Shown here: in pieces, positions 7,062 through 52,100 of the stretch
How positions within the stretch are numbered: position 1 is the first letter of the stretch
Layout: each line of letters starts with the position of its first letter
Source: Halichondria panicea
Lineage: Eukaryota; Porifera; Demospongiae; Suberitida; Halichondriidae
Assembly: GCF_963675165.1 (NCBI RefSeq)
Contig: NC_087382.1
Location: 7,488,315-7,552,314, forward strand
Length of the DNA stretch: 64,000 nucleotides
Direction: 5' to 3'
Program-made: the position numbers and the translations under genes
The notes under the pieces: model-generated
Databases searched by the model: none
Told to the model about the DNA's origin: nothing
Seen by the model: only the letters and a program-made list of their open reading frames with translations

Positions 7062-7145
7062 ATGCTGAAAAACAGACGTAGTTCACTTCACATCATGTTA
7101 GGGCAAGCCATAGCCCTCCTATCCTTTGTGGTGATAGTTAGCTCT
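7062..7145 (+). other. Signal peptide of the giant repeat protein
   Basis: Basic start (KNRR), a hydrophobic core (AIALLSFVVIV) and small residues SS before Gln 29 give a typical secretory signal with predicted cleavage after residue 28. No second hydrophobic stretch follows, so the product should be secreted rather than anchored. Confidence 0.8.
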
Positions 7146-13100: not shown

Positions 13101-16100
13101 GTGAATGCTTCTAGTTTCAATCCAACATCGATCACGATTCAAGGCAGTGCCGTAATTGCAGATTCCTTTGTGACTTTGAGAGATGGTGTAGTTGGTGCCA
13201 ACAGTGACATACTTACGGTAATGCTTTTCACTAACGACTTAAATCAGCTAAAAGTTTATCTTAATTTAGCAACGGATGAGCCGAACACATTCATCTCTTT
13301 TGATTCTATGATGGTATCAGATATGAATAACAATCTTATTGTTGAAATTTTTAACAGCTCTGCCCGTGAAGCTGTCTTGTTCCTTGATGACACGATACAG
13401 CCAGAATTGGATAGTTTTGATCTCAACCTAAATAATTGTGTCCTGACTTTGAACTTTTCCGAGACTGTATCTGCACCATCACTGGATGTCACAACTATCG
13501 TGCTTCAAGATGATACCAATTCAACCAACTGTTACACTTTGACCTCAGGAACAGTCCAGACTGAGAATTCTTCTATAATCGAGGTTACTATCTCCAAGTA
13601 CGACAAAAACCTAATAAATGAGAGATTCACCCTAGCAACTGGACTTAGTGATACATATATCAGCTTAGGAATGAATGCAATAGAGGATATGAATGGAAAT
13701 AGAAATACTGAAATTCTCAAGGACTCTGCTATTCCTGTCAGTGTGTTCACTCCTGATACAACTTCCCCTGCAATGGTCAACTTCACTCTTGATCTCAACA
13801 ACAGTGTAATAGTGTTCCTATTTACAGAAACAGTGGATGTGAGTACCATCAACTTCACAACCATTACTATAATCAGTGACCGTTACAATACAAGCGTCAA
13901 TACTACTGAATACACTCTCACAAGTGGCTTTGTGTCTCAACGGAACTTCACGGATGTGACTGTAACACTTGTCGCAGATGATTTGAATGCGATAAAAGCT
14001 GACCTAATGCTTACTACCAGCATTGACAATACATTCATATCATTTACCAGTGATCTCATTGAAGACATGCATGGGAACGCAATCAATGACATTCCAAAAT
14101 CTGGGGCTGTTCTAGCTTATGACTACATTGAGGATACCACTCAACCAATGTTGCAATCTTTCGGGCTGAATTTAACTTCGGATATTCTTAGCCTTTCATT
14201 TGATGAGACGATAAGTGCGGCTACCTTTAGTGCATCTTCATTCACTTTGTCCAATTATCCTGGCAGCTCTGTGTTTTATACCCTCACACAAAGTGAGCTT
14301 ACCTCAGCAACTGATTCGACTGAGATTTTCATTCAGTTGTCGTATGTAGATGCCAATGAGATTAAACGGCTTCCACTAGCAACATCACCAAATGATACCT
14401 ACTTATCGATTGGTCCTCTGGCCATTCAAGACACCAGTGGTAACGTATTAACCGAAATATTACAAAATGAGGCTGTATCAGTAATCGGATTCTATGCAGA
14501 TAATGTTAACCCTACACTACTTTCATTCAATTTTAACGTAAGTAGTGGTGAGATCATGCTGACATTTTCTGAAACAGTAAATGCTTCGACCTTGATGATT
14601 ACTGGGTTCACACTGCAATCTACTAGTAACAGATCCACACTGATCAACTCAGAAGGAGTGTATCAGTTAACATCTTACTCCACTTCTTCAGAAGCAAACA
14701 GCCACATTATTATGATAACAGTTGAAGCATTTGACTTAAACCTCATAAAAAGAGACACTACCCTGGCTATTTCCAATGAGACTATTTACATATCTGTGCT
14801 GTTCGGTTCTGTGGAGGATATGAACGGGAATTCATTGGAAGCCATTTCTTCAGAATCTTCCCAACGTGTCTTGGAATTCACAGATGATTTCATTGCACCA
14901 GAAATATTTGCATTCAACTTGTATTTGAATCCAGGAACTGAAAATCTTGTACTCGAGCTTGTATTCTCAGAAACTGTCAATGCTTCATCAGTACAGCCCA
15001 CAGAGTTCACATTCAGTAACAGTCAGAATGGTACCAACATCTTTGTTCTTACCGGTGGAAACGTGTCCTCTCTTGACTCAACTGTGGTTCAAATATATGT
15101 TCTCCCTGCTGACTTAAGAAGCATCAGACTTCTTGATGGAAATCTGCTACTCACACTTCCAGAGACTTCCTACTTATCTCTTTCCTCAGCAGCTCTCTTT
15201 GACATGGCTGACAATTTTGTAGTACCAGTTCTTCCTGGTGATAGACTTTTGAACATCAATGGCTCTAATGCAGACTTGAATCCACCAGTTCTGCAATCCT
15301 TCATTCTTGATTTGGATGTTGGATCATTCTTTTTGACATTTTCAGAGCCTGTATACGATTTTGAATTTAGGCCCACAAATCTGACAATTCATAATGGGCA
15401 AGATGTCAGTTTTAATTCTACTCTGGGATCTTATTACACTCTTAGTGGTGGTGTTGCTCAGAATCTGCCTGCTATGGAGAATGTTATTGAAGTGAAGATT
15501 ACTGAAAATGACTTTAATGAGATTGCTAAGATTACAGACCTGGCTATGTCGGTAAACACATCCTATGTATCAATTACACGGGGAATCACGATTGATATAT
15601 CAGAAAATGAAGCTAGATTTATATCGCCCGATAATGCACTTCGAGCTGAACAACTAATTTTGGATATGACAGATCCTATACTCAGAGCATTTGAAGTGAA
15701 CCTCACTTCCGAAATCCTAACCTTCTTCTTCTCTGAGACAATAAATTCAGAATCTGTCGACACTACGATGTTCACTTTTCAAAACAGCATAAGCTCTGCT
15801 ACTCTCTTTTATACACTCAGAAGCAGTACTGTGCTCACTCAAAATTCTCCCGAATTGAGGATCCAGCTCTCAGAAGTAGACATCAATGGCATCAAGCTTA
15901 TCGATGGTCTCTTAACATCTTCCACTGATACTTTCTTGTCAGTGGATAGGGAGGCTCTCATGGACATGACAGGAAATGAACTAACTGATATATTTCCCAC
16001 CAATGCTTTGCCGGTGCAGTCATTCTTCGGTGACACAATTAGTCCTCAATTGGTGAACTTCACAATTGATCTGGATCTAGGTGTACTCCTTTTCTCATTC

Positions 16101-19100
16101 GATGAAACTGTCAGAGAAACAACGTTGGATGCCACAAAGATCACATTGTTTAGCTCCAGCAATAACTCGGAGCACAACCTCACTCTATCAAATGGTTTCA
16201 GTAATACAGACAACAGCAACATGTTGAGTATTTCTTTGAGTTTAGTAAACCTTAATGAACTGAAACGATTGCCATTTTGCACAGATGCAAGTGATTGTTT
16301 CCTTTCATTCACGGAGGACCTAGTGCTTGATATGATTGGACTCCCTGTGATTGAGGTCACAGCAGAATTGGCTCTTAGCCCAAATAGTTTTGTGCCAGAC
16401 ACTACCTCTCCTGAACTAGCTAGTTTCCTGCAGCTGGATTTCAACCTTGAAACTGTGACACTACAGTTTTCTGAGACCCTCAACATTGACACAGTAAACC
16501 TGGCTGACATTACATTCCAAAGCTTGTTCACTGATGCCTTAGATTCTGTATCATTGACAGGTGGAAGTGTCCCTGATCAAAACACTTCCACCATTGTCGT
16601 ACAGCTTGGTCAAGCTGATTTAGATTCTTTAAAGCAAGAGTCACTCGTCTGCTCCATCAGAGGAAACTGCTATGTGTCACTCACCTCTCAGTTTGCTGAA
16701 GACATGAATGGAAATCGTGTGGTTGCTGTAGAGCAGGAATTCCCAGGATTCCTTGTTATGGATTTTGTTCGTGATCTGATCCAACCCAATCTGATTGCTT
16801 TTGACCTCAACCTGGCAGCTGGCACTCTTGTTCTTGAATTCAGTGAGCCTATTGACTACACTTCCATCGACTTTTCAGCTCTACAACTTCAAGGAGTCTA
16901 TGACACTTTCAATACTACAGGCTTGGTTATTTTCCCACTCTCAGAGAGGCAGACAGTTATATCTTTGAGTACGAGATCAGTTCTCGTGACCTTAGTCACT
17001 GCAGACGTTGAACGGCTGAAAGCTTCTCGTTACTTCGTTGACAGAAACTCAACCTTTATAGCTATTCTTTCCACTGCTGTGAGTGACATTGCTTTTTTCC
17101 CAAATTCCATCAAGGAGATCAATGAAACCGATGCGCTTCAAGTTCGTAACTTCACTGGAGATGTTGATGGTCCTATTCTCTCTTCATTTGAGCTCAATTA
17201 CATCACAAATCAGCTATTACTAATGTTTAATCAACCTGTGCTTGTGACATCATTTGATTTCACACAAATATCTTTCAGCTCAGTATCTATTCCCCAAATG
17301 GGAGATGAGGTGTACACGCTTACTGGTGGTGAAGTAGTAAACACAGATTCAAATTTTGTTGGCTTGATGGATGTAAATATTTTTCTAAATCAACAAGATA
17401 TTACAGCACTAAAGTCTTCACTCACTCTAGCAACAGACGTGACTAATACATATATCACTATCACGAATGAAACGGTCTTGAACACGTTTGGGGAAAGAAA
17501 TATGCAAACTGACGGACTTCGAGCTATGAGCATTGTTTCAGATCCGACCCTTTCTCCTGTAAGGCTCTCCACATTCACGCTTGATATGAACACTGGTGTG
17601 ATTGAACTCACTTTCACTGATGTTGTGAGGAGCAGCACATTTGATCCAACTGCAGTAGTCATACAATCTGCTGCTTTCTCTAATGAGGAAGAGAGATTTC
17701 GACTCTCAGCTGATAGTATCTCATCAAGTCCTGATGGATTCTCACTACTAGTAAACTTGAGTGCAACAGATCTGAATTCTCTTAAGACCTTGCCAAGTCT
17801 GGCAACTGGCAACAATACCTCTTACCTCACTATTCAAGCATCTGCAGTTGAAGATGTCTTTGAGACGAACATAATTGCTATCACTAATGGCAGAGCTCGT
17901 CAAGCTAGTGGGTATGTAAGAGATTCTATTTCTCCAATGCTGAATGAATTTACCCTCGATTTGAACAAGGGTCAAATTACATTGACCTTTTCGGAATCTG
18001 TAGATGCTAATACACTTCAGCTTGATAGCATCTCTTTGCAGAGCGAACTGAATAGCTCTAATGCTGAGGTATGGTACGTTAATTCCACAGACACAGAGGT
18101 GGAATTGCCATCACTACTTGAAATCAGGCTCACTCTAACTCCAGACAACCTCAACAAGCTTAAGCAATTTCCTAATGTTGGTACTAATGTTAACAATACC
18201 TACATAGTTATTGCTGAGAATGGAGTTCTCGACTTTGCCGAAAATTCTTACAATGACTCTACCCCACTAATTGCTGCACGTGTCATTCCAGACACCACCC
18301 CACCTGAGTTGGTTCAGTTCGATCTTAACTTAGACACTGGCAGCCTCACTTTGACATTCAGTGAGACAGTAAATGCATCATCAATCAACGTGAATGGTTT
18401 CACTTTTCAAGAAGCAGAAACATATCGAACTGGTGAAGTTGTTATACTGCAATCCTCTGTGCCAATGCTAACAAACGCACCTTCGATAGTCATTCCACTC
18501 TCCCTTGGTGATCTCAACACATTAAAACAGACACTGACAGTTGCTACAAACCGCAGTAATACATACCTAACAGTCTCAGAAGATGCATTCTTTGATATGA
18601 GCTCTCTTCCTGGGGTACCTATTCTGGACACAGCTGCTCTGCAAGTCACAACCTTTACTCAGGATATTACACTACCAAGACTTGTATCATTTGGTCTGAA
18701 TTTAACGACGGACACTCTCACTTTGTACTTCTCAGAGACTGTGGATGTATCAACATTGGATGCTACTGAGATCACTCTTCACAGTATGCAGGCCAATGGC
18801 TCTTCTGTATCTCTGTCTGGCGGTTTCTCTACATCTCTGGATGGACCTGTAGTGAAAATAATTGTCCCAACCATTGACTTGAATGTCATCAAACTGAATG
18901 AAGACTTTGCCACTACTGCTGATAATATTTACTTGTCATTGACTTCAGCAACTATTGAGGACACTGATGAAAATGCTGTCTCTGCTATTGAGCCTTTTGA
19001 TCCAATGTTAATCGATCCCCTCGAGTTCTATCCAGATTTAACATCACCTGAACTCCTTTCGTTTGTATTTGATGCAGACTCTGGTATTATCACACTTACC

Positions 19101-22100
19101 TTTGATGAAGTGATTAGAGTTTCCACACTAAACATTTCTGGAATAATACTTCAAAGTGCACTATTTGCTTACGTTGAGCATCGTCTAACTAGTGGCTACG
19201 TGAATGGCAGTGGAAATGGCGTTTCCATTCAAGTGAAGCTTTCTGGTTATGATAGGAACAGGCTCAAGTCTTTACCTGGGTTAGCTATTGATATATCTAC
19301 TACATGGATTAGAGTGGATGATATTTTGTTTGAAGATATGAACAGCAATTTGCTTGCGCCTATATCTCCATCTGATGCCATACAAGCTTCTCTTTACACC
19401 CAAGATCAATCATCGCCTAGCTTATTGAGCTATGAAGTGGATCTGAACACTTCAATGATAAGCTTGACTTTTTCGGAGACCGTTGATGCTCGAACATTTA
19501 ATGTAACAGGGCTCACTCTATTGAGTAATGCATCAGGAAATGCCGTAAGGTACCAGCTCATTTCAAGCACTTCATCTACAGAAAATGTGATCAGTGTGAA
19601 TGTTTTCCTGAGTAGAGAAGACTCCAATGGTATTAAAGCACTAAATGGCCTTGCAACATCTGAAAATGACACATACTTAGCTATTGATGGCTTCCTTGTT
19701 CAAGACGTCGATGGGAACTTTGTTGCTGGATTTGCTGATGTTGATGCTCGTCCAGTTTCAGGTTTCACTGCTGACATGGTCCCTCCTATTTTGGAACAGT
19801 TCACTTTCGATGCCAATTTGGGTCAGCTGATATTTAGTTTCAGTGAAACTGTGGATGCTAGCTCATTCAATGTCTCACAAATTGTACTGCAAAGCTCAAG
19901 TCTCAGAAATGAGTCATTTGTGTACACTCCAAACAATGGGACCATTCTTACCTCATACAGTCCACTTGTTACAATTCAGTTATCTAGAGAGGACCAGAAT
20001 ATAATTAAGCAGATATCAACTTTAGCTACAACTGAGAATAACACCTTCATTAGCTTCACAAATATGAGTGTGACAGACACGTTTGGAAATCAGGTGACTC
20101 CTGTTGACGAAAATGAAGCGTTTGGTCCTGCAGCTTACATTCCTGACATCACTGCTCCTGAATTGGAAGCTTTTGAGCTGGATATAGATTCGGGAGAGCT
20201 TCTGCTTTTCTTTTCTGAAACTGTTAATGCCATGAGTATTAGACTGGGTTCAATTACTGTGCAAGGTTCTCCAGGAAATAGCACAAATTTCCACACATTG
20301 ACTGCAGAGACTGCATCCACTGACAATTCCCCTATACTCACTGTGTACTTGAGTGATCTGGACCTGAACTCCATCAAACTGGATCGTACTCTTGCAACCT
20401 CTATTGACAACACTGCTCTTGCAATAAAAACCACTGCTATTGAAGATATCTTTGGTAATCAAGTCATTGAAACTTCGATCAATGCTTCTAGCTTTACCAA
20501 TGACACTACCCGTCCAAATCTGATTTCTTGGTACCCAGTGCTCAATGACAGTCAGCTCTTCCTCATATTTGATGAAGTGGTTGAAAGAGATTCTCTCACT
20601 TTACCATCACTCACATTGCAGTCTGTGCTCGACATAACATTCAATGCTTCACTGAATGTGTCCGATGCTGCCTTTGATATATTTACATTGCAAGGTGGAA
20701 GCTCTGCAAGCACAGATGGTCTACAAATAATCATCAAATTGACAGAAGCTGACCTGAATATCATTCAGCAAATGATTCTACTTTTACGTTCAGAAAGTTC
20801 TTCCTTCATCAGTCTCAATGGTACATTTATTCAGGATATGAATGAGAATCCTATTGAGGTTATACCAACCAATGATGCCTTTCCCGCTGTTGACTTCTTT
20901 GAAGATACTGTACAACCTTACTTGAGGGACTTCTGGATTGATGTGAACTCTGGAAATTTAACACTATCCTTCTCTGAAACTGTTGATGCCTCATCTTTCA
21001 TTATTGGCGGAATTGTTATTCAAAATCAATTCAATGTTTCCTTAAGTGGAGGTTATGATTACATGCTAACATCAGGCAATCTATATTCAAATAACGGCCC
21101 TATACTTGAGATCCAGCTGTCAAGAGAAGATCAAAATGAACTCAAACGACTTGGGATTGCAAGAAGTGCTTTTCACACCTGGTTAACTTTGGATTCAATT
21201 ACAGTGTCTGATATCGAAGAGAACTTGTTGATTTCATTGGATGATGCTTTAACAGCAAGACAGGTGTCAATAAGCAACTACATAGTCGATACTACTGCAC
21301 CTGTTCTTGAAAATTTTGACATTGACCTCACTGCTAACGTTTTGACTATGTACTTTAGTGAAACAGTAAGAGCAAGTACTTTGAACGTGACACAAATCAC
21401 CTTACTCAACGAGCCAGATGGTATTTCATATACTCTCACCAATGTTAGTGTTTTCAGGGACAACAATCTTGAGAATATAACCGTCGATCTTGGCCTAGAT
21501 GATCTCAATGAAATCAAGCGTATATCAGCTTTGGCTGTTGATGAAAATACAACCTTTATCAGTATAACGTCTAACACAATCCTAGATATGAAAAACAACT
21601 GGAATACAGAAATCACAGCAGCTAATTCACTGCCTGTCAATGCCTTCACTCCTGATACCATCCCCCCTGAATTGCTGAAATTCGATTTCAATCTGACCTC
21701 TAATCAGTTGATTTTGTATTTCTCTGAGACTGTGAATGCAACAAGTCTTGACGCAACTCAAATTACTTTGCAGAATTCTCACAATAACACTGATATGTAC
21801 TACCGTCTAACAGGTGGCTACTCAGTTTTAGGGGACGACCCTGTCATTATTCTGTCCCTGCTCAACGAAGACTTGAATGTTGTCAAGCAGTTACTAACTT
21901 TGGCAACTGGTCCGAGCAACACCTACCTATCCTTCACTATGCAAACCATCTCTGATATGTTTGGTATTCGTGTGGCGCCAATACCATTTGAGGCGTCAGT
22001 AATGGTCACTGATTTCCTTGGTGATACTATTCGACCAGAGCTTCGTAGGTTCGACTTGGACTTGAATGCTGCCACATTGACGTTATACTTCTCGGAAACT

Positions 22101-25100
22101 GTCAATTCACTATCACTTTTGACTACTAGTATAACTCTTCAAGACGAGTCAACTGCTGCCAATAGCTATCAATTGGTAGATGGATATACAGAGAGTATTA
22201 ATCAGTCCGTGATTGTGGTGAATATATTGACAACTGACTTGAATGAACTAAAGAAGAACACTAGCATAGCTACAATGCCAGAAAATTCTTTCATTGTTAT
22301 AACTAGCTTGCTTATTGAGGATATGAGTGGGAATTCAGTCTTGGAAATAATTGATACTGATGCTTTGAATATTACGATTCATATCCCAGATACCACTCCT
22401 CCATTCTTAGTCAGCTGGAATCTAGACATGGATGTTGGAAGAATTAGCATGACTTTCTCAGAAACTGTTAATGCTTATACCTTTGATCCATCGGCAATAA
22501 CAATCCAAGCCACATCTTTCGTGGGTGCTTTAGATTTTGCCTCTCTAACGTATACTCTACTTGGAGGTAGCTCTACAGAGGAAAATAGTACTGTGGTTGA
22601 GTTTGATATCCTTCGTGATCTCACAGAAGCTGTGGATGACTTGAATCAACTGAAGAACAACACAGAAATTGCAACATCTCTTTCTGACACATACATCTCC
22701 TTCCCTTCTGATTTACTATTGGACATGAACGGTATTGCAATCGTCCCACTGAATAATGGTGATGCTCAACCAGTACAAAACTTCACTAATGATACGACGT
22801 CTCCACTTTTGTACGCATTTGACATTGATATGAATACAGGGGAGCTAATACTAACTTTTGATGAAGTGCTAAATCGAAGTACACTAACTCTCACTAGTTT
22901 CACAATCCAACAAGAACCTAACGCACTAGTGCCTACTCTAGTCAACGAGACATTCTTGAATGGCAGAGTAATTCTAGAAGTTGAAAGAAATCTGTCGAAT
23001 GTGGTTCTGAACTACACATTGACAGGAGGGACAGTAGGCAATTGGAATGACCAAATTATCCGAATTCGTCTCAATTTTGCTGATCTCAATAGAATCAAAC
23101 GGCTTGAACTATGCACGGATATGAATGAAGTGAACGATTGTTTCATCAGATTCACTCAAAATGTTTTTGACGATATGAATGGTAATTCAGTGACACCTAT
23201 AGATACCTTTGATGCAAGAATGGCTAGAATTTACATACCAGATGATACATCACCAGCGTTGATGGATTTCGTAGGATTTAACCTAGTCACAAATAGAGTT
23301 CGAATAGAGTTTACTGAGACTGTTAATGTGAGTACCTTTGATCCAACTCAAATAACTTTTCAAAGATGGACCTACGATGATAGCAATCGAACGAATGTAC
23401 CTTTCGAGATGTACACACTCACTGAAGGAACAGATATCACCGAAATAAATGACATAACAGTTGAATTCACGCTAGTTGTTGAAGATCTCAATGTTATCAA
23501 GCAAAGGGAAGAACTCTGTGTCATTGATCGAAATTGTTTTATTAGGTTTACTTCTACGGTGGTGAGAGACATGGCCAATAACAATGCTTTCAGGCTCGAT
23601 GACTCTTTAGCTGCCCTACTAACTGAGTTTCCTACGATCTATGTAGAAGACAGAGTCTCACCGATCTTAGTGTCTTTCAACTTGGATATGGATAATGGGA
23701 ATTTGTCTTTGACCTTCGATGAAACTGTTTCATACACTGATTTCAGATCAACTGCAATCACATTGCTTAGTGCTCAGTTTAATGAAACAGAAAGCATTAG
23801 TCTAAGTGATAAACAGAGCATTACCAATCTTGACTGGGTGTACATTATATTGACGATCACAAATGAAGACCTGATGGTATTGAAATCACTTGACGAGCTA
23901 GCGACATCTGTAAATGACACTTGGTTGGAAAATAGAGCTAGTCTAATTGAAGATCAGAACGGTATTGCTGCAGCTGTCAGAGACTCCACTAACAGGCTAC
24001 AAGTGTCTAATTTGCTACCAGATGTTACTTCTCCAACACTCACAGATTTCAATTTCCATTTAGGGACGAAAATTATCACCTTGATTGCAGACGAACCAAT
24101 CTACTTGCCCTCTGTTCGTCCAGAACTGATTGCTATTATTTCCAGTTCTAATATTTCTGCATCTGGTACTACCTTCTACCGACTAACTAGTGGCAAGGTG
24201 TCGTATGAAATGCCTGAAGTTTACATGAAACGTCGAGTAAATATCTTACTCACCGACGAAGACTTGTTCCATATCCAACTCAACAATGGTCTTGCAACAG
24301 AATCTTCAAACACTTATCTGTCTATTGAGAATGGTACCTACACGGACATGTTTGGAAATGTAGTACTGGAAGTCCCAGATACAAATGCACGTCCGGTGAA
24401 TATGTACGAGGGTGATGATGAAAGAGTAAAACTACTTATGTTCACCATTGATTTAGACACTGGTACACTTGATCTAACGTTTGATGATACTATTGAAGCT
24501 GTAACGTTTGTGCCATCTGGGATCACACTCATAAATGATCCTTACAATATCACAACAACATACACTTTCACTGACGAGACATACACAAACTCTACAAATG
24601 GATACACACTGCACATCATTCTATCACAGGTTGATCTGAACAACATCAAAAACGATCTCAGTCTTGCTACTAGCCGCAACAACACTTTCCTTTTAACTGC
24701 TCCACCTCCGAATGTCCCTATATCTGATACATCCAGCTTACCTCTCGAACCAGTTATCATTGGCCTTCAAGCCGAAAACTTCACAGAGGATTCATCAAGA
24801 CCACATTTGATGTACTTTGACTTAGATCTCAATGAGGGTACCATTTCTCTCAACTTCAATGAAACAGTAAGAGCAAGAACTCTGAACGTGACAAATATTG
24901 TCATTGGTAGCAGTGAGAATTTTACAACAGCTTCTTTTACTCTTCAACTCACTGGAGGAAATTCTACCCAGACAGATTCTACTTTAATTGTTGTGACCCT
25001 TCTTACAGAGGATCTTAATGAGCTGAAGCGAATCACTCCTGGCTTAGCTACTAATATGAATGATACTTATGTTGCTTTCAATAATGAAACACTTCTCGAT

Positions 25101-28100
25101 TTGAACATGAATATCGTCGTTGAAATCGCTGAAGAAAGTGCTATGAAGGTTAGACTTGTTATTCCAGATAGAACCTTCCCTACCCTGGTATCGTTTGACC
25201 TCAACCTTTCCACTGAAGAACTTGTTCTAACCTTCGATGAAACAGTTGATGCGTCCACATTCAATATCAATGGCTTCACACTAGTCTCTTCTCAAACCAT
25301 TTCAGCTTCATCCTATACACTGCAGAATGGTACATCCACTCTAAACGATTCAACCATCATCATAGTTTCACTTGACTTTGACGATTTGAATATGATCAAG
25401 GGTATTAGGGATCTAGCATTTTCAAATCAGAGTTCTTATGCTTCTATTGAGCCAGTTTTAGTTGAGGATATGAGCATGAATGCAGTGAATACGATCTCAG
25501 TACCAGCAGCACTTTTAGTGACAAACTACACTGAGGATCTAGTTAATCCGGTACTCGTGTCCTTTGACGTTGATTTGAATGTTGATATGGTACTACTGAC
25601 ATTCTCTGAAACAATTCGACCTGAAACACTGGATATCACATCCATCACGTTTGTGGATGCTTTAGACACAGTGAATAGAACCGGCAGTTACAGGTTGACC
25701 AGTACAAACCAATCGTATGATGATACCAGATTTGTGACAATCACACTTAATAAAGAGGACTCGGATGAAATCCGTAGGCTTGAAAATATTCTCACTTTCA
25801 ATAACAACACCTTCATTGTTGTGAGCAATGAAACAATTCGAGATATGAATCTGAATCCTCTTGAACCTACAGTTCTCCAAGTTACATTTCTCCAACGAGA
25901 CTTCATTGACCCTTCTTTTGTGTCATTCGACCTTGATTTGAATATTGGACATCTTTCACTATTGTTTTCTGAGACAGTCAGGGCAGTCACTTTGGATGCT
26001 ACTCAGATCACACTTCACGGCAATGCTTCTCAATCCTATACACTGACTGGTGGCAACTCAATATATGGGGATAATACTACCATTGTCGTTCAATTGACAG
26101 ATAGGGATTTGAATGCACTAAAGAGAATGGAGCAAGTAGCTACTGATGTGAACAACACACTTATCTCTCTGACTGCTGCAACTATCGAGGATATGAATAC
26201 TAACAGAGTGATGCAAATTCTAGGAATGGATGCAGTACTTGCTTCTGACTTTATCACCGATACGACCAGGCCAGATCTTGATGGCTATAACTTTGATTTT
26301 GACATGGGCATCATTGAGCTTACATTCTCTGAAACCGTTAGAGTATCTACTCTCACAACAGATCAATTTACTCTCCATAGCTCATTCAATGATAGCATCA
26401 CAGCTTATTCTTCCTACAACTTAAGCTTATCAAGCTATGTGATCTCAACAAACCACCATATTGTCCACTTACAGATGAGCAATGAAGACTTGAATTCTAT
26501 CAAGAAGCTGACAACTCTAGCAATCAGTCGAGATACAACCTATATCACAATAACAAGTATCTCAGTGAGTGACATGTTTGCTAATGAGGTCAATCCAATC
26601 AGCCTCAATGAATCTTTCACCCCTCACAACTATACTGAAGATATGACACCTCCGATGCTTGAAACATTCAGCTTAAATTTGAATACAATGCAGCTGATTT
26701 TAACATTCGATGAGACAGTGAATGCAAGTACCCTGAATATATCTGGCATAACTTTGCAATCTGACTTCTTCGACTTCCCCGGTAACTCTCACAGACTATT
26801 CTCAGTCTTGACTACAACCTCTTCTCTTAACCAGCCGAAAATTGTGATAGATATAGCTCGTGAAGACCTCAATGCTATCAAGTTGATCACTGAGCTGGCC
26901 ACAACCATCAACAACACGTACATCTCAATTGAGGGAAGTATTATTATGGATATGGTTGGAATACCTGTTGTAGACGTATCACCAAACAATGCACGACCAG
27001 CCTCAGCCTTTGAACGAGATACGTTTGGACCAGTTTTGCTCAGTTTCAACCTCAACTTAACTTCAGAGATTCTATCCCTCACATTTGATGAATCTGTCAA
27101 TGCAAGTAGTGTCGATTTATCACTCCTCATCTTGATACCTTATGAGAATGCGAGCTTATCTGAAGGAGTTTCTTTCATGGATGGTGTAGTGTTCTCCCAA
27201 GACTCGCACGAAATTGATATCATGATAGAATTTGATCAACTCAGTCTTATAAAGTTAGACACTGCACTCGCGACAGATAATGATACTACTTATCTTTTTG
27301 TTCGAGCTGACACTGTTCGTGATCTTTCTCTGGACCAGAATGGTATTATTGAAACAGTACAACTTGTCAATATGCTCTACTCAGACATGACTTCTCCTCG
27401 TCTACTGAACTTCGAGGTTGACTTAAGTGGTGGTTTTATCATTTTGAACTTTGATGAACCAGTTGACAGTGGCACTCTTGATCCAACTGCTGTTGTCTTG
27501 CAATCAGTTCAGTCTCTAGTGAATGAATCTTTTTATGGTCTCACTGGTGGTAATGTAACATTCAACATAAATGGAGCTCAGCAAAGAATTTACGTGTCTG
27601 AAGATGACCTCAATGCAATCAAGCAAGATGAGACCCTGCTGAGAAATGCTAGCACGACATATTTGAGTTTCTCTTCCGATCTTGTGAGCGATATGAATGG
27701 CAATAGTCTTGTCCTCATTTCAACTGCTGATGCTCTTAATGTTAATGCCAGTATGTTCATTGACGACAATGTCCGTCCTAGACTAAACAGTTTTGACCTA
27801 GACATGAACACTGGCATTATAACTCTACATTTCTCCGAGACAGTTGATGTATCGACTCTAATAATCAACCAGCTCACTATACAGCTTATGTCATCAGTCA
27901 TGAATCCAGTGCATGCATATGTACTGACTAGTGGCTACTTGGTGTCTGCAATCAACGATGTATCGGTAGATGTTCAGATAACAGATATCAATCTCAATGA
28001 GATAAAGAGGAGAAGTATTGCATTAACTCGACCGACAACTTGGCTCACATTCAGCGATGATACCATTCGCGATATGGTTGGAGAATATGCACATGGTCTC

Positions 28101-40100: not shown

Positions 40101-43100
40101 CCCAGCTATTCACTGGGCGACACACTCACGTTTATTTTCTCTCCATCAAGCAGCTTCACCACTTCACCAAACAGTGATGTCATTCTGGTGGATATTGGAC
40201 TGTCTGATCTGAATGAGATAAAGAGAATCCGAGGTCTAGCTACAGGAGCAAATACAACATTCATTGTCATCACAAATACAACGGTCAATGACATGAGCTC
40301 TTACCCAGTGGAGGAGATTTTGGTGTCTTCAGCACAGCAAGTTGCCATCTTCACTAATGATTTCATCTCACCCGAACTCGAAGCATTTCAGCTTGATATC
40401 GATACTTCTCTACTAGTGCTCAACTTTACTGAGACAATTGACATTCTCAGCTTGAACATTAGTGAGATCACCTTCGTGCCTCATCCATCCTCCTACTTTG
40501 AGAATCAGACATACACTCTAACCGCTGGAGTACCACCTAGGTACTCTTCCACCAACTCGTCAGATTCAAACTCTGTAGTGATTAACATTGGCAATGAAGA
40601 TCTGAACTCAATCAAAAGAATCAAAGATTTAGCTCAGCAGGTGAACTCTACATTTATTAAACTTTCTTCAGAAGCGATTTCTGACATGTTTGGAAATGGT
40701 CTTGTACCGGTTGTAAGGGAGGCCGATATCTATGTAGCTGATATAAGTCCACCTGAACTATTGGCATGGACCCTCAACTTGACATCAGAATTGCTCATAT
40801 TCACATTTGACGAGACTGTGGATGTAAGTACACTGAATATTACGTTCTTGTTGCTCAGCTCAGAAATAACATCAGAAAGTGTGACCTCAGCCTCAGGCAG
40901 TGGTAGGATATCCGGATCTGGGAGTGGATCAGCAATGGCAACGTTGGAAATTGATACTCCATCACTCTATACTTTGACCAACTTTGATAGTATTTCGCAA
41001 ATCGATGATCCAATCGTGACCATCTACCTAACTGACAATGATCTCCACCAGATCAAGCTTATGAGAGGCCTGGCAAGCACAGCTAACAATACTGTACTCA
41101 CAGTAGGGCTTGCAGCTTTGTATGACAACTCTCTACTACCAAATTCTATCTTGGAGGTAACTCAAGCTGTTGAAACATTTGTGCCGGACAAGATCCAGCC
41201 AATGCTTTTAAATTTCACTGTTGATATAAACCTTGGTACACTAACGTTGAGATTTGATGAGCCAGTCGATCGTTCCACTTTTGATCCTACTGGTTTGACT
41301 CTTCAACGATCTCAAACTTTCTTGAATCTTCAACAAAAGCTAAGGCTCACCGGTGGATTCTCTGATAGCACTGACGGTTTGGTGATTGTGATACGAATAA
41401 CAATTGATGATCTCAATGAGCTGAAAAGGAAGGACATGCTGTTTACAAGTATTGACACTTCTTACCTCACAATCGATAGATTCTTTATCAGTGACATGGC
41501 AGGGAATACAATCACACCAATATTAGATGGTCAAGCTCTGCAGGCAATTCGGTATAGAAATGATACCAACATGCCTTTTTTGACTTTTTATAGCCTGAAC
41601 ATGGACAATGGGTTGCTCGCACTAACGTTCTTTGAAACAGTGAATGTGTCTTCATTCAATGTGAACCAGTTGACTCTTCAGAGATATCCGAATGCCATTC
41701 CACTGAGCCAATTAACTCTAAATAGCAGTAGCCTTATATCTTTGGAGGACAGCACGATTGTGTACGTGCAGATCTCCGACAATGATCTGAACGAGCTCAA
41801 GACTAGAGAAATTGCTGATAACAAAACAACTGCATGGCTTGTTTTCCCACAAACTCTTGTTAAAGACATGAATATGCAAGATGTTGTAGAGCTTGAAAAT
41901 GGAATGTCGGCAGCAATGGTGACCAACTATACAGCAGATACAACTCGACCAACCCTTGTATCATATATTTTGGACTTGAACGAAGGTACAATCCTCCTAA
42001 CATACTCTGAGTCTGTTGATGTTCGAGGAACTCTAGTAGTTGAAGAGCTTGCACTACAAAATACCCGTCGTATCAATCGAGACATTGACGGGTTTAACTA
42101 TCTCATGTTGACACAGAGCAGTGTAAGTATTGATGAAAACCGACCGATATTCACGATACGCTTAAGCCTGGTTGACCTCAATGCACTAAAGCAGAGGCCA
42201 ATGCTTGGAACAAATGTCAATAACACCTTCATCAGCTACGGCTCCAACTTTATCCGCGATACTGTAGGAAATGAAGTAGTTTCCATTCCTTCTACAATTG
42301 GATTTATGGCAGACACAGTATTCATTGATATTGTAAGACCTGAGCTAAATACATTTGAACTCGATATGAGCTTGGAAATTCTCACCCTCGTATTCTCAGA
42401 AACGGTCGATATTTCCAGCTTCGATCTGTCACAGTTCACACTAGTGAGCTCTCCTTCTGCTGTTAGAGAGAACATACAGTCACACACACTCACTAGTGGA
42501 GCCATTCTATCTATGGATGGGCCTGTAGTGAATATTGATCTGAGTACACCTGACGTAAACCGAATCAAAGAGCTGAACGAGTTGGCTGTGAGTACAAATA
42601 GTACATATTTGGTGGTCAGTATGACTGCTTTGGTTGACATGATTGGTCTACCTGTGGTACCGTACGAATATATCGATCCTCTACTTGTCGATATCTTCAT
42701 TCCTGATTTTATCCAGCCTAGACTTGTGTCGTATAGTCTCAATTTGGATGGTTCAGCAGTGTTGATTCTAACATTTAGTGAGACAGTCAACGTGAATACC
42801 TTGGATGTGACTCAAGTCACCCTGCAAGATGACACCACTGCTAATTTTCTGTATACTCTCCGCAGTAGCAGTTTCCTTAGTACTAACACCACTGTTATAG
42901 TAATCGATCTCTCATCTGAAGATTCTAACAATGTGAATAGGATTTTGAACCTTGCAACTTCGTCTGAAAACACATATCTCACATTTACTGAATTGCTAAT
43001 AATGGATATGAATAGCAACTCCATTATTCCAATTTCTGATACATCAGCAGTACCTGTACTCCAGTATACTCCAGACACGACAAGTCCAGAAATTGTTGCA

Positions 43101-46100
43101 TTTGCACTTGATCTTACGACTGAGAGTATGTCTTTTACATTCTCAGAAACAGTCCTAGCATCAAGTTTCGACCCAACAGCTCTCACTATCCAGAACTTTG
43201 TGACCTCCACTCGTGATGGACAGTACACTCTGACCGGTGGATCAGTTCGCCAGCAGGACAATACTTCTGTCTATTTGCAGCTGATTTTTGAAGATGTGAA
43301 CATGCTGAAACAACTCGAGAATATTGCAACCTCCACCAACAATACCTTCATCACCTTCACAGCTGGTCTGGTAACAGATACAAACAACAATGAAATCATT
43401 CCATTGGTGAATGGAGAAGGTCTACAAGGGCGCTTTGCAGGAGATGAGATCGCTCCACAGTTACTCTCTTTTGTAGTTGATCTGAATCGTGGTCTGCTGT
43501 TCTTGAACTTCAGTGAAGCTGTCAACATCTCTTCCCTCAGGCCAGTAGATATCATTTTACAAGACTGTTGCCAAGATTGCAAATTTGGCAGCACTGAAAG
43601 TGGTAGCACTCAGCTAGTGTCCAGTGGAGGCATGAGTGGTAGTGGTCAAATTTTTCTTAGTGGAAGTAGCAGTGGAAGTGGCAGTGGAAGCGGCAGTGGA
43701 ATCATGGACCCTTCTTCATTCTGTAATATGTCTGACTATCTCTACACATTGACTGGTGGTGAATGCACTGATGAGCAAAATACTAGGTTTGTTTGTGAAG
43801 TGAGTGACTTTGACTTGAATGAGATCAAGCGACTGCCACTATGTGTGTTCAACAACCAAGGGCAGGATTGCTGCTTAGCTTTTCAGAATCAGTCGATAAC
43901 AGATCAATCTGGAACTCCTATCAATAGTTCCGTTTTTGAAGGCTGCGGATTCACTGTAACACAGTTTGTCCCTGATGTTAATCTCCCGTATTTAGTGGAA
44001 TTCACTCACATGAACTTAGACTCAAGAATTTTGACTATCACTTTCAATGAAACCATTAATGCAAAAACAATCGATTCCACACAGATCACTCTGCAGTCCT
44101 TTTATAGGAATGCCCAGTTCTCTCACACTCTTGTGGGAGGACAGGTATTGACAAATGACAGTACAATTGTCATGATTTCACTAACTAGTGAAGACCTGTT
44201 TGAAATACAGAGACAAAGAGGACTGTGTTCTGACATCAACAACTGTTGGATCTCAATAACCGATAGATTTGTGCTAGACATGTCAGACAATAGGAATGTA
44301 GAAGTACCAACTAGCAATGCTAAAGATGCTCTCAGGTTCACAGATGACTTCAGCAGGCCACAACTAGTTGCCTTTGATCTAAATCTTGATGATGATACTC
44401 TGACCCTATCATTTGGCGAGACTGTTGCTTCGTCTTCTTTTGATCCAACTGGTGCTATTATTCTAAACGCACGCTCTGACAGTGCCCTCTATGTACAACT
44501 AACTGGAGGTAGTACAACCAGCCCTGATGGCCAAGAAATAATCGTCAACCTTTTGACAGTTGATACCAATATGATCAGAGCCTCTGATGAGATTGGCACA
44601 ACTCTGAACAATACTTTCATATCCATCACAGACAACCTCATCACAGATGCTGTACGAAGAAATCCGAATCCTGTACTGAACATCAGTTTCACAGAAGCAC
44701 TTCAAATTAGCCGATTAGTTGAAGACAACCAGTCACCTCGACTGTTATCATTTGCTGTAGACTTCGTGCAGGATGTGATTTCTTTGACCTTTAATGAGCC
44801 AGTTCGTGTCTCTTCCATTCGATACGAAACTATAACTATTCTCTCTGAGCCGTCTATCAATGCTGTTGATGCTTACAACCTAACTGGTGGTCGTAACACA
44901 ATAGCTGCAAACATGAATGGTACAATGGTTCTAACTGGTCATCTAGAGCCAGTTGATGTAAGATATTTCAAATTATCAACTCTTCTTGCTACATCCATCG
45001 TCGATACATGGCTTAGTATTCAAGCTGGTGGCATCAATGACATGGCAGGCAATTTCTTAATTGGCATACCTATCAATTTATCTCTACCTGCCTCCTCATT
45101 TGTGGCTGATACAATGCAGACATCTCTGATTGGTTTCACTGTAGACATGAATCTTGGTCTCTTGCACCTCACATTCGATGACATTGTGGATGCAAGCACA
45201 TTCTTCCCAAGGGCTCTGACTCTGCAGAATGAGAGCTTCAGTAATGAACGGGATGTAGTTCAACTGTCACCAACGAGTTTTACTGAGAGTCAAGATGGCT
45301 ACTTCATAACTGTGAACATATCTGTGGATGACTTGAACGCAATAAAACTAAATGACAATCTTGCAACTGGGTTAAGTAATGTCTACCTATCAATGCAAGC
45401 AGAGGCATTTGATGATAACTTTGGTAGAGACGTTGTGGCAGTAACTGCTCATGAAGCTAGGCAAGCTGATAATTTCACTGAGGATACCACTTCTCCGGTG
45501 TTAGTCTCGTTCGAGTTCAATGTAGACAGTGGATCAATTTCTCTGTTCTTTGACGAAACTGTAAGAGCAAATACGATCAATGAAGATGTCATCATTCTTC
45601 AAAATGCTCAAAATATTTCAGTTGTAACAGTGTCACAGCAACTCTCTGGAGCTAACTCTTCACAAGAAGACTCAACATTGATAACTGTGTATTTGTCAGA
45701 AGACGACTTGAACATGGTCAAAGCATTCACAGACCTGGGAACTATTGAAAGTAATACCTTCATTTCCTTCAGCTCAAGCCTTATCAGAGATATAAACAAT
45801 AATTCGGTCGTATCTCTACCAGTAGAAAGTGCACTACAAACATCACGACTGTATCCCGATGACACTTCTCCGCAAATTGTATCATTCATACTTGACCTGA
45901 CTGCAGAGTTAATCCATATCACATTCAGTGAAACCATCATGGCTAACTCTACTATGATCCCAGAATTCTCTCTTCAGGGTAGCCCGTCAAGGCAAGACTT
46001 TAGAGTGCTTCAGGACAGCACCCACTCACTTCTCGACTTCAAAGTGCTCACAATATACTTAGGAATCAATGACTTGAATGAGATCAAGCGACTTACGTCA

Positions 46101-49100
46101 GTTGGAACTAACATCAACAACACTTATCTTACTGCCACAACATTGGCTATCCAAGACATGAATGTCAATCCACTTGTACCTACATTACCATCTCTAGCCT
46201 TGAGAGCATCAATGTTTACATCGGATTCTATCCTTCCTACGCTACTGGGATTCAACTTAAATCTGTCTTCGGAGATACTGACCCTGTCTTTCTCTGAAAC
46301 AGTGCGAGCTTCAACACACTCTGTTTCTCTCTACACCATTCAGTCAAGCATGAGCTTGGCTAACTCAGTGCAATATTACTCGTTGACAGGCGGCATCTCA
46401 CAGCATTATGACAGTCATGTTATTGAAGTGGAACTGACGACTCCAGATCTGAACGAACTTAAGAGGCTGGTGTATCTTGCAATCAACAACGAGACTACAT
46501 TCCTATCAGTTGATAGTGATGCAATCTTTGACATGAACAACAATCCTCTAGTTTCTGTATTGGAGGAATCTGCATTACCTGTCTCACTATTCCATGAAGA
46601 TATCATCGATCCTGAGTTACTGTCATTCAACTTGGACATGAACAGTGGTATACTGACACTAATGTTCTCGGAAACAGTTCAAATAAGTACGTTTGGCATC
46701 ATGCAAATATACTTTCAAGATTTTGCAAGGAGTGTGGATAATTACAGGCTTTCAAACAATAGCTATACTAACAACTCTGACTCAGCAATTGTTGTTATCC
46801 AGCTGCACTCAGTTGACTTAAACGAAATGAAGAGACTGTACACACTTGCGATAGATAACTCAAGCGCTTTCATTTCTTTCAATGATCAACTGGTACAAGA
46901 TATGAACGAGAATAGTATTGTGCCTATTTCAAACGATGAAGCACAGCTAGTTACTATATTTGTTTCTGATCAAACACGTCCAACTCTTGCAATGTTCGAT
47001 CTCAACCTAAACAGCAGCGAACTGCGTCTTGTTTTCAGTGAAACAGTCAATAGAGAGTCACTTGATGTGGAATCTATTACAATACAGAATTCTGACTTAC
47101 TACTAGGGTCCCTCCAGTTGACGCAATCTAGTGAATCTTCCTCTCGAAACGATACCTATATCATAATTGACATTGGTTTGTATGACCTCAACAACTTGAA
47201 ACGGCTGACTGAAGTAGCAATATCAAGAAACACAACTTATCTCTCTTTGAACTCCACAGCTATCAATGACATGAATGAGAATGCAATTCTTCAGATTCCA
47301 GGCTTCATGGCTCTGCAAGTATCTAGCTTTGTACAGGATGAAATTCGGCCAATGTTGCAAGCATTCAGCCTGGACATTGATGCTGGAATTCTACGATTGT
47401 TCTTCTCCGAGACAGTGAATGCCTCTTCATTAAATGTATCTGCCATAACGTTGCAGTCCTCAATGACCATCTTAGCAGAAGAAAGCTATAGACTACAGGA
47501 TGGCATTTCACCAGAGCTGACAAATACCAACAGCTCAGATGATGCAACCCTCACTGTACTCATAGGATCAATCGACCTAAATCTAATCAAGGCTAACTAT
47601 CTTCTTGCTAACTCTAACGTGACAATTTTCCTTTCCTTGAGTGTGTACGCTGTTATTGATATGGTTGATCTGCCAAATGAGCCTATTTTGGAAAATATGG
47701 CTGTGCAGGTGGCAGAGTTCATTGAAGACACCTCACAACCACTACTCCTTGGATATACTCTCAACCTCACTTCAGAAGAGCTTGTTCTAACATTTGACGA
47801 GACAGTCAATACTGGCAGTTTTGAAATAACGCAGTTAACTCTGCACTCAACACAAAACATCACAGTTGGCTCCTACATGATGCTAACAGATACAAGATTA
47901 GTGTCAATGATGAACAGCACAGTTGTGACAGTAACATTTGGTCAAGATGACCTCAACTTTATCAAGCTAGATACTGAACTAGCAACTGCAGATAATAACA
48001 CCTATCTCACAGTCACTTCTCAAGCAATCCAGGATATGGCACTCATTCCTAACCCATTGTTACCAACCACTCTACAAGCAGAAATATTTGAAGCTGATCT
48101 AGTGAATCCACAGCTCATATCATTTGTTGTGGACATGAATGTCGGTGTACTGATTCTAAACTTTGACGAACCTGTCAATTCAAGTTCTCTGAATCCAACA
48201 GGATTTAGTCTTCTCTCAGAGAGGAATGTGTCTCTATCCATGATGATGAGTGCAAATGCTACAAATGATACATCTGGAAATGACACGAGCACCTTTGAAG
48301 CTATTTCTACCTTTACGCTGACTGGTGGTGCCACTAACAGTAGCAATGGCCTACAAATCACTCTCTACTTCACAAATGATGACTTGAATGCAATCAAAGA
48401 AGATGAAGATTTATACACGAGCAACTTAACATCATATTTGTCAGTAAATGAATTTGCGATAGCTGACATGAATGACAACCTACTGACTGAATTAAACTCC
48501 TTTGAAGCCCTGCAAACAGCCATGTATGTCAGTGATACCACATCACCTCTTGTTCTCAGTTTTGATCTGGACATGGATGAAGGAATTCTTACCTTGAGCT
48601 TTGCTGAGACTGTGAATGTAACATCTACAATGTTTGATGGGATTGTCCTGCAAAGAAGTTCAAATGTAACAACAGCAAGTTATTCATACATGCTAACCGG
48701 TGGTCAGCTAACAATGATGGAAAACGGCTTGGTCGCTGTGATACAGATCTCTCTTGAAGATCTCAATGAGGTCAAACGTCGCAGGATAGCCTTGTCCCCA
48801 AATACAACATGGTTAGCAATAGAGGAGGCAACACTGCTTGATATGAGTGATCGGCCACTTCAACCTCTATTGAATGGACTGAATACCATTATCGTCACAA
48901 ACTATACCTCTGACACTACTCCTCCAGTGTTGGACTCCTTCACCCTTGACCTTGATTCTGGAGTAATCACACTTTTCTTCTCAGAGACTGTCGTCACTAT
49001 GACATTTAACGTGACGTTTACCACTTTCCAAGATACTGCTAATGGTAGTAACTCTTTCAGTCATGTCATGCTCACCAACTCAAGCTATGTCAATGGCACC

Positions 49101-52100
49101 TCCTATCATATTATCCCAATCGTACTCGGTCTGGATGACTTAAACACGATTAAACAAGAGCCATACTTGGCCACTAGTCAAAACAACACATTCCTTTCGT
49201 TTTACAGTGATCTGGTTGAGGATATCTTTGGTAACAACATTCTTACCGTTCTACAAAATGATTCTATCCAAGCATCTGAATTTTCTCAAGATATCACCCG
49301 TCCTCAACTTGAGGCCTATGATCTTGACATGGACTCGAGGAGGCTAGTACTGAGATTCTCAGAAACAGTGAATGCCTCATCACTGCAAGTTGATGGGATC
49401 ACTGTCATCAGTGACCCTTCAGTTACCGAGAGATACATGCTCGATTCTAGCACACTGGTACTCATTTACAGCCCAGAAATTGTAGTCACCATATCCAGTG
49501 AAGATTTCAACGCTATTAAAACTCTAACAGCATTGGCAACAAATGAAAATGATACCTTCCTTGCTATTGAGATGTTTACCATTACAGACATGGCAGGCAA
49601 TTTCGTAGTAAATATCAGTGAGACTGAGCCTTTGAGAGTGAGTCGATACATCAAAGACCTTCAACCTCCAGAGCTCACTAGCTTCAACTTGGACATGGAC
49701 AGTGTTGTACTCTCTCTAACTTTCTCAGAAACTGTTAATGTGAGCAGTATTGACTACACTGCAATTACAATCCTGAATCCAGATGCTCCATATCTATCGT
49801 ACACTTTGTTGAGTGGTGAAACAATTTCTCTCAATGGACCGCAGATTGTCATACAGATAACGAAAATTGACGAAGATAATATCAAGAGAATAAACAACCT
49901 TGCCACAGAGATGAATAATACATACATCTCAAGTACATCTGAGCTGATTGCAGATATGGATGATAACACCATTCTTAATATCTCCTCATTTGATCCTCTC
50001 AAGGTTGCCAACTTCACTCCGGACACCACACTCCCAGCACTTATCTCATTCGATCTCAACCTCGATGCTAACAATGTCACTCTTGTCTTCTCAGAGACTG
50101 TAAATGCTAGTACCTTGGATATTATGGGAATATCATTCCAAAGCCAAAGCAGTTTTGCTGTGAATGCAACTACTTCATATAGTCTTACCAACAGCATTGT
50201 TCAACCAGTTTCCAATGATCCCATTGTGAGCATTCAACTGAGTCGATCAGATAGAGACAACTTTAAAGAGCTCATTGCTCTGGCGGTGGACATGAATACC
50301 ACCTTTGTTGTGCTAGCTGAAGGAGTGGTTTTGGATATGGTTAGTCTTCCTATTCGTGCAATCAATGAAACTGGTGCTCAGCTGGTACAAACGTACACAA
50401 TGGACATGACATCACCATACTTGGAAAGTTTCAGCTTAGACTTGAGTGCAGAGATCCTTTCATTGAACTTCTCAGAACCTATACTCATTAGTACACTCGA
50501 TGTATCAGACATAAGCTTTCACAGCAGAATGTCAAGTAGTAGCTACACACTAACTGGAGGTATTGTTGTGAATGTACGTCACAGCTCCTATCTGATGATC
50601 ACACTCTCCACAAGTGATCTGAATGCAATCAAAGTGAACACTGACCTTGCTACCAGTATCAACAACACCTACATTACTTTCACTGAAGCACTGGGTGAAG
50701 ACACATCATCAAATACAATCTCAGCACTTTTAGATCCGGTGCGAGCAGACAGTTTCACAGAAGATTTGGTTAAACCGACCCTCCTGAGTTTTGAACTGGA
50801 CTTGACCTCTGAAGTATTGATACTGTCTTTCTCAGAGAGCGTTAATGTAGAGAGCATACATCTACCCAGCTTTAGCTTTTTATCGACCCACAATGAGAGT
50901 GTGCCTGAGTTCACATTTAGCTCTAGCAGTTATACCAATAGTGGAAATGGCGATGTGATAGTTGTCATGATTAGTCTGTCAGACCTGAATCGCCTCAAAG
51001 CTAATCCATTTGTTGCTGCAAGTAATGATACAACATTTCTCTCAGTGCTAGAGTCTGCAATTATTGATATGAATAATAATTCTATTGTAGCAATTCCATT
51101 GTCTGCTGCTTTGCCTGTTGCTGTGTACACACCAGACCTACTTGAACCTGCACTTCTTTCATTCGAATTGAATATGAACGAAGAAATCTTGACACTTTCC
51201 TTCTCTGAAACTGTCAACGCATCATCACTAAGAGTTGAAGAGATAGTACTACAATCAATATCAACATCACCTTTGGTTTCTGTAACATTAACTGATGCTG
51301 TGAGTGTATCATCGGAATACGACCCCGTTATTATTATAACTTTGACAAGAATCGATTTGGATAGACTTAAGAGCTTGACTGACCTGGCAACATCTGTGAA
51401 TGATACCTTTATATCTTTGAGTGCTTCTACTATTCAAGATATATTCAATAATCCAGTAGTTGAAATTTCACCAACTGATGCTCTTCAATCTTCACTCTAC
51501 ATTGCAGATGCTACACTACCTCAGCTCAGTAATTACGACCTCGACATTGATGCTGGAATTTTAACAATGTACTTTTCCGAGTCAGTTGCAGTGGACAGTT
51601 TTGATCCCACTGGAATCACAGTTCTTTCCAGTGCTGTACAAGACAGTGGTACCTCATACTACACTCTACGAGACCGTCCTGACAATAGTATCAATGTTGT
51701 AAACAGTGAGTCGACTGTAGTGTCATTTGAATTTTCAGTGTTCGATTTTAACAACATCAAAGCTATTGTACAGTTAGCCACTTCTGCCAGCAATACTTTC
51801 CTCTCAACCGACATGACCACAATTAAGGATCAAACAGGTAATAACATCACTGTGATTCCTGTAACTGATGCTCATCCAGTGAATAACTACACGATGGACA
51901 CAACATGCCCCGTACTAAGCTCTGTATCACTAGATCTAAATGCTGGAGTACTGTTGCTTACATTCAATGAGCCTGTGAATACCAGCACATTTAATCCCAC
52001 AATGGTTTCCATCTTCAATGAAGAGAGCATTGCTCCAGTAGAGCAATATACACTACAGACTGCAATGTACACGGAAATGGTGTATGTGACCGAATTACCT

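Follow-up and report, generated by a model that had tools for sequence, protein, structure and literature searches.

Introduction

Super-repeat rulers have been described in muscle, with titin and nebulin as examples. In the portions of two reports that were available, titin is described as carrying two zones of different period, with 6 x 7 and 11 x 11 domains, the 11-domain super-repeat of the C-zone matching the 43-nm spacing of MyBP-C (PMC7427331), and position-specific conservation within the C-zone is concentrated at positions 1 and 7 (PMC10665226). Here we analyze a stretch of 64,000 nucleotides from the sponge Halichondria panicea (C6:7488315-7552314 within the 131.5-Mb assembly; hereafter the window, whose positions are used unless C6 is stated) that contains the giant gene W16. 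The assembly gave ten matches to the Wnt family, which is not known outside animals, and 0 of 14 control genomes gave any, in keeping with an animal source. The middle of W16 consists of five consecutive copies of an 18-domain super-repeat, and the system is larger than first described, since it comprises two adjacent giants, W16 and G41, with different super-periods and one shared node. No description of these proteins was recognised in the part of the literature that the search returned, which does not by itself establish their absence from print.

Results

An old 18-unit super-repeat in W16

The units of W16 were delimited with a hidden Markov model (HMM) built from its own repeats, which yielded 126 full units of ~123 amino acids (aa), numbered u1 to u126, plus a half unit, u0, at aa 31-94. 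An earlier note on this DNA had described five consecutive blocks of 18 units, each of 2,245-2,326 codons, and the present analysis placed them at u24-u113, with the same outer borders and with lengths that fall within this range (Table 1). When the units were grouped by ordinal, i.e. by their position within the block, same-ordinal identity was 0.337, as compared with 0.302 ± 0.0024 in 10,000 unit shuffles (maximum 0.311; z 14.6). A scan of periods 3-45 (300 shuffles each) gave 18 as the best period (13.9), followed by 36 (10.3), 9 (9.9), 6 (6.8) and 12 (3.6), and lags of 72, 36, 18 and 54 units had the four highest means among lags 1-79. Likeness within ordinals exceeded likeness across ordinals for all 18 ordinals, the least at ordinal 3 (0.296 versus 0.286). 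The nearest neighbour of a unit had the same ordinal in 27 of the 90 cases by identity and in 36 by BLOSUM score, and it was the adjacent unit in 1 and 0 cases, respectively. The signal persisted when the marker ordinals of the earlier note (1, 2, 5, 13 and 14) were removed (z 8.0; 65 units), when only ordinals 6-18 were used (z 8.6; 65 units), and when 13 and 14 were also withdrawn from the latter set (z 4.4; 55 units). In a residue-level dot plot, offsets of 2325, 2338 and 4558-4565 were among the best 60, but those of ~122-125 and their multiples led. Block lengths vary, and the periodicity is clearer in unit lags than in residue offsets.

In a maximum likelihood tree of the 90 block units, same-ordinal units clustered together, and the ordinal label required 48 changes, as compared with 74.0 ± 1.96 in 2,000 label shuffles (minimum 64). 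The grouping is far from perfect, which would need 17 changes, and complete five-member clades were formed by ordinals 1, 4, 5 and 14. Among the 30 cherries of the tree, 17 joined units of the same ordinal and 2 joined adjacent units. Neighbours did not group together, since labels for runs of five neighbours required 74 changes versus 74.0 in shuffles, and block labels required 61 versus 55.1; neighbour-wise growth of the array is thus ruled out by this tree. The same-ordinal grouping indicates that single units had already diverged when entire blocks were duplicated, as the earlier note had proposed.

These duplications are old. The third base agreed at 32.5% of shared four-fold codon boxes between same-ordinal units and at 31.1% between different-ordinal units, which places synonymous sites near saturation; within the 48 kb of W16, no exact 30-mer is repeated. 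A tree of the concatenated blocks separated blocks {1,3} from {2,4,5} with a Shimodaira-Hasegawa-like approximate likelihood ratio test (SH-aLRT) support of 99.8; its end branches are of about one substitution per site, and the divergence between blocks is about two substitutions per site. Given this split, two blocks may have been moved together in at least one event, and a two-block duplication in W16 is therefore possible. Although giant repetitive genes are prone to misassembly, an assembly artefact or a chance pattern is extremely improbable: the blocks share only ~34% of aligned residues, which together with the absence of a repeated 30-mer makes collapse or expansion by the assembler implausible, and chance is ruled out because none of the 10,000 shuffles reached the observed same-ordinal identity. 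The middle of W16 thus grew, long ago, through repeated duplication of an 18-domain block.

Each W16 block opens with a five-unit node

Every block begins with a node composed of a unit with a Cys-loop (ordinal 1), a second Cys-loop unit with an insertion (ordinal 2), two further units (ordinals 3 and 4), in the second of which the Glu is usually followed by Pro, and a domain with a Glu-to-Asp change (ordinal 5). Of the 13 Cys-loop units among the 126 of W16, 12 sit on ordinal 1 or 2 (u1, 24, 25, 42, 43, 60, 61, 78, 79, 96, 97 and 126), in agreement with the earlier assignment of Cys pairs to these positions, and only u10 lies elsewhere. The insertion at ordinal 2 is also real, but it consists of one residue rather than two and is not exclusive to that position: of the 123 units whose motif could be located, 8 carry it, namely u1, 25, 43, 61, 79 and 97 (all six nodes of the gene) and also u3 and u94. 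The Asp-containing strand of ordinal 5 (DD, TD or ND) was observed in u28, 46, 64, 82 and 100, and in u4 as well; Glu is kept in 119 of the 126 units, the seventh exception being u27 (Gln). At ordinal 13, previously described as a flat-loop unit, reading by eye showed a bulky residue in place of the loop Ala of most units, and at ordinal 14 the Trp-type loop (TW or AW) was seen by eye in four of the five blocks, u73 having SY instead.

The pattern had been assigned to 16032-50402. A sixth node, u0-u4, precedes this span and an ordinal-1-like unit, u126, follows it, so that the pattern extends beyond both borders, with the register broken outside the five blocks. Units u5-u23 gave z values of -0.3 for the 18-cycle and 0.1 for the 23-cycle of the neighbouring gene (see below), and gaps were required to fit u114-u126 to the 18-cycle (a score as high was reached by 2 of 300 shuffles; z 2.4 in another test). 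A continuation of the 23-cycle into the first part of W16 was considered and rejected, z being 3.0 with the node units and 0.1 without them (3.3 and -0.3 for the 18-cycle). The stretch u10-u13 (10749-12287), in which u13 has the form FNEP three units after u10, is perhaps a degraded extra node.

The node is shared with two other giant genes

The neighbouring gene G41, which is divergently oriented relative to W16, comprises 335 units in a stop-free frame of 41,557 codons, the starts of neighbouring units being at most 180 aa apart. Titin has a length of about 34,000-36,000 aa, and the G41 product would thus be one of the longest animal proteins. Its period is 23, with a same-ordinal score of 1.183 versus 0.991 ± 0.004 in 300 shuffles (z 43.6), and the nearest neighbour had the same ordinal in 104 of the 335 units, 13.6 being expected. 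Each of the 15 windows of 23 units showed a positive excess for period 23, the final one being short and weak, and an insertion of two or more residues was present at ordinal 10 in 14 of the 15 copies; the 15th copy, which is incomplete and ends with a half unit, was kept wherever 15 copies are counted. Since the period of G41 is unlike that of W16, 18 is a property of W16, and it is the five-unit node that is common to the three genes found.

In G41, 50 of the 51 Cys-loop units fall on ordinals 1, 2, 13 and 14 (13/15, 11/15, 12/15 and 14/14 copies, respectively), and Glu-to-Asp changes are found at ordinal 5 in 13/15 copies and at ordinal 17 in 13/14, as well as at ordinal 18 in the majority of copies and in scattered units. 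A cross-matrix of the two genes showed diagonals in which W16 ordinals 1-5 match G41 ordinals 1-5 and, more strongly, 13-17 (run score 0.67; highest value in 200 permutations, 0.43), with no clear match between the spacers in that matrix. The two periods can therefore be written as 23 = 5 + 7 + 5 + 6 and 18 = 5 + 13, so that the distance from node to node alternates between 12 and 11 domains in G41 (spacers of 7 and 6), the spacer of W16 having 13. A homology of the W16 spacer with both G41 spacers (13 = 7 + 6) was rejected, mapping A being matched by a fraction of 0.38 of random draws and mapping B by 0.037; the latter was not accepted because it is the best of 13 cyclic shifts.

A third gene with the W16-type unit lies at C6:2381001-2433500 on the minus strand. 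It has two giant exons, with stop-free frames of 10,065 and 6,172 codons, joined in phase by a GT/AG intron at LTG/G, in the middle of a unit and at the position where the half units of W16 and G41 are divided. Nodes with a Cys-loop in units n and n+1 and Asp in n+4 were found at G6 u9/10/13, whose unit n+3 carries a long SG-rich insert, and at G10 u7/8/11; by eye, G10 u37-u41 is perhaps a degraded node. The 3' tail contains three TIG stretches and a Calx-beta match (28.7 bits; cut-off 27).

Residue counts were made over 38 nodes (29 of G41, 6 of W16 and 3 of the third gene; 37-38 units per ordinal). The nodes of G41 and five of those of W16 were placed by period, that of u0 by its Cys pair, and the three of the third gene by their own Cys or Asp marks, for which the counts are circular. 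Cys86 and Cys92 were present in 86-95% of units at node ordinals 1 and 2 versus 1-2% of the 392 other units, Pro26 in 58% at ordinal 3 and 92% at ordinal 4 versus 10%, and Asp25 in 89% at ordinal 5 versus 3%. That these residues persist despite saturation, and at a divergence of about two substitutions per site between W16 blocks, suggests that the node is under selection. The super-repeat might instead be the mere footprint of unequal crossing-over, arising from the chance duplication of 18-unit blocks, with no physical role for the period. This explanation, which we regard as possible though doubtful, would fit the fact that all 18 ordinals, also those beyond the node, are more alike within than across, as well as the different period of the paralogue G41, the array ends of W16 that are out of register and the lack of a period in the third gene. 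It accounts less readily for a node that is present in all three genes and is kept, despite saturation, at residues that are rare elsewhere, and for the ordinal-10 insertion in 14 of the 15 G41 copies, although inheritance could also explain the latter.

The repeat unit has a predicted SbsC/Big_5-like immunoglobulin (Ig) fold

AlphaFold2 modelled a single unit with a predicted local distance difference test (pLDDT) score of 97.0 and a predicted template modelling (pTM) score of 0.89, and five units with values of 92.8 and 0.75. A Foldseek search with the single unit gave no match under E 0.001; SbsC occupied ranks 1-2 with an E of only 0.008, and in a second look at this list residues 258-358 of SbsC aligned with 101 of the 124 residues of the model (Z 9.4; 2.6 Å; 13% identity), i.e. 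the same fold over most of the predicted domain, a middling Z that may reflect only a common arrangement. The best matches of the five-unit model were strings of Ig-like domains with low TM-scores, the first being 8q6t_I, a chain of the cardiac thick filament, with the titin chain 8bnq at ranks 26 and 39. At the sequence level, the Pfam family that matched most units was Big_5 (PF13205; 7 of the 70 units scanned, best E 0.0012), whose model has 105 positions and differs in this from the ~123-aa unit; its curated cut-off was not exceeded in the matches examined (14.2 of 23.6 bits in a stretch of the third gene). No family exceeded its cut-off for the unit in the Pfam, NCBIfam and PDB sequence searches of the scanned parts, which include 70 of the 126 units; Pfam gave no family at E <= 1, and no Calx-beta, in two W16 stretches (2,972 of 16,085 aa), and neither I-set nor fn3 was among the matches listed (25 of 27 families) for the 70 units. 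By these tests the W16 domain is SbsC/Big_5-like, not I-set or FnIII.

The information that distinguishes ordinals was highest, in W16 and in G41, in the DLNxIK helix-to-strand loop (columns 80-93) and in the FSETV strand (columns 23-27), and it spread more evenly over the columns when the node ordinals were left out. Among the node residues, the highest specificity is shown by a Cys pair flanking this one loop, and the loop and the FSETV strand carry the most information per column when all ordinals are used, as would be expected if the nodes, rather than being docking sites, were covalent or folding features, such as disulfide-stapled loops that resist unfolding, or processing sites, and if the period marked mechanical segments. 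We consider this explanation unlikely, because ordinals 4 and 5 bear other marks that do not involve Cys and because, without the node ordinals, the information no longer concentrates in the Cys-bracketed loop.

Signs of secretion and features of the window

W16 contains 382 sequons for N-glycosylation, as compared with a mean of 268 in 20 shuffles, and SG-rich inserts in u89 (40908), u96 (43668) and u119 (within 52266-52757). Such inserts are also present in the third gene, and none were found in G41 with the pattern used for W16. They are possible glycosaminoglycan or O-glycan sites. Together with the likely signal peptide, these features suggest that W16 is a secreted glycoprotein. The unit u96 (43443-43973, ordinal 1 of block 5) has 177 aa, ten Cys and a long SG-rich insert.

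The features of the window are collected in Table 1. An in-frame TAA begins nine bases 5' of the W16 ATG, as read by eye. Downstream of W16 lies a protein kinase gene at 56488-57612 (+; Pkinase, 96.4 bits), with what seems to be an intron and a possible upstream exon near 56226, and a 516-aa open frame at 61867-63417 (+), in a region where GC skew and AT skew are strong, had no Pfam match at E 0.001.

Table 1. Coordinates of W16, of its parts and of the adjoining end of G41 in the window
Feature	Positions	Strand	Remarks
W16	7062-55319	+	single uninterrupted open frame, 16,085 aa; likely signal peptide
Likely signal peptide of W16	7062-7151	+	aa 1-30; translation read by eye
Node 1	7152-8855	+	half ordinal-1 unit u0 (three Cys), u1 (Cys-loop and one-residue insertion), u2, u3, u4 (FNDIV)
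u5-u23	8856-16031	+	19 units; register with either super-repeat not above shuffles
Super-repeat block 1 (u24-u41)	16032-22790	+	2,253 aa; node 16032-17921
Super-repeat block 2 (u42-u59)	22791-29729	+	2,313 aa; node 22791-24788
Super-repeat block 3 (u60-u77)	29730-36464	+	2,245 aa; node 29730-31607
Super-repeat block 4 (u78-u95)	36465-43442	+	2,326 aa; node 36465-38408
Super-repeat block 5 (u96-u113)	43443-50402	+	2,320 aa; node 43443-45482
u114-u125	50403-54947	+	last block, incomplete; neither Cys-loop nor Asp marks; u122-u124 match ordinals 13-15
u126	54948-55316	+	terminal ordinal-1-like unit, three Cys, then stop
G41, start of giant exon	1-1508	-	23-unit super-repeat; frame C6:7365159-7489829; acceptor ATTAG/GTGCTC read
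G41, candidate signal-peptide exon	3556-3619	-	GT/AG joining to giant exon reads through in phase

Discussion

Taken together, we interpret W16 as a giant, probably secreted, filament-like protein with regularly spaced docking or cross-linking nodes, a reading to which, as a whole, we assign a probability of about 0.6. The domains would form an extended extracellular string, and the nodes would be sites, regularly spaced along it, at which a partner docks or becomes cross-linked. Such a site at fixed distances is suggested by the fact that the node is conserved despite saturation and in different genes. Block length would then set the spacing of the partner, as is thought for the C-zone super-repeat of titin and MyBP-C, and with the ~4 nm per domain of titin the distance between nodes would be ~72 nm on W16 and would alternate between ~48 and ~44 nm on G41. 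From the sequence of the protein we infer a physical period of ~2,300 residues, and by analogy W16 may be a ruler-like scaffold.

Several observations weigh against this interpretation. The rise per domain is taken from titin, and the spacing differs between the paralogues (18 versus 12/11), so that one common lattice cannot accommodate the two. Register is lost, wholly or partly, in the 19 units that follow the first node of W16 and in its 13 C-terminal units, and some similarity is also retained among spacer ordinals, as expected from plain duplication. In G41, column 25 is occupied by a residue other than Glu in 52 of the 335 units, 27 of them on ordinals 5/17, 10 on ordinal 18 and the others scattered, and Cys is missing from one node (units 323-324). 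Nodes are isolated in the third gene, which lacks a super-period, its best lag being 2 (z 3.4; 95% shuffle limit 3.1), and lags of 18 and 23 gave z values of 0.7 and 1.8 (118 units, empty rows excluded).

The G41 frame terminates with a stop halfway through a unit, having covered the first half of a node-first domain of ordinal 13; the open frames in the 2.6 kb that follow showed no further units. W16 starts with the second half of a node-first domain. The two chains might thus dock by completing an Ig fold or might share an ancestor that was split by an inversion. W16 and G41 could accordingly be a pair of extracellular rulers, of ~0.5 and ~1.3 micrometres if each domain again contributes 4 nm, with a common node and different fixed spacings, which either dock end to end via one completed Ig fold or descend from one such divided array; we regard this extension as improbable. 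Ancestral fission is of low likelihood because half units at exon ends are not rare, as seen in the third gene at the LTG/G intron and at a break between open frames inside its first unit, and because a node seems to lie near the beginning of all three genes (in the third as judged by eye).

If the ruler-like filament interpretation is true, hierarchical duplication of domains would have originated independently, starting from an Ig fold of bacterial type, in an animal that seems to lack muscle, in a protein that is probably secreted and with periods, in W16 and G41, longer than those of known muscle super-repeats. The shared node and the gene-specific spacing make the ruler idea testable, since they predict the position of a partner and its distances.

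As for the known systems, sponge aggregation factors have Calx-beta and Wreath domains; one Calx-beta match lies in the tail of the third gene and none in the two W16 stretches scanned. SbsC (PDB 4uic, 2ra1 and 4uj6) is the closest solved fold of a single W16 unit in the second look at the Foldseek list, but it is a bacterial cell-surface lattice protein and not a giant tandem array with super-repeats. The analogy with A-band titin drawn in the earlier note holds for the architecture and not for kinship, because the domains of W16 are SbsC/Big_5-like, and W16 is outside the titin family by the tests made. Titin is intracellular and built of I-set and FnIII domains, whereas W16 looks secreted, and W16 stops after u126 without a C-terminal kinase, the kinase frame at 56488-57612 seeming to be another gene. 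The blocks of W16 and G41 have 18 and 23 domains with a five-domain node, as compared with the 6 x 7 and 11 x 11 domains of the titin zones. Titin resembles these proteins in that position-specific conservation is concentrated at a few positions and in that two different periods occur. What titin and W16 also have in common is the arrangement, i.e. tandem Ig-like domains organized in long super-repeats in which the domains at the same position are the most alike.

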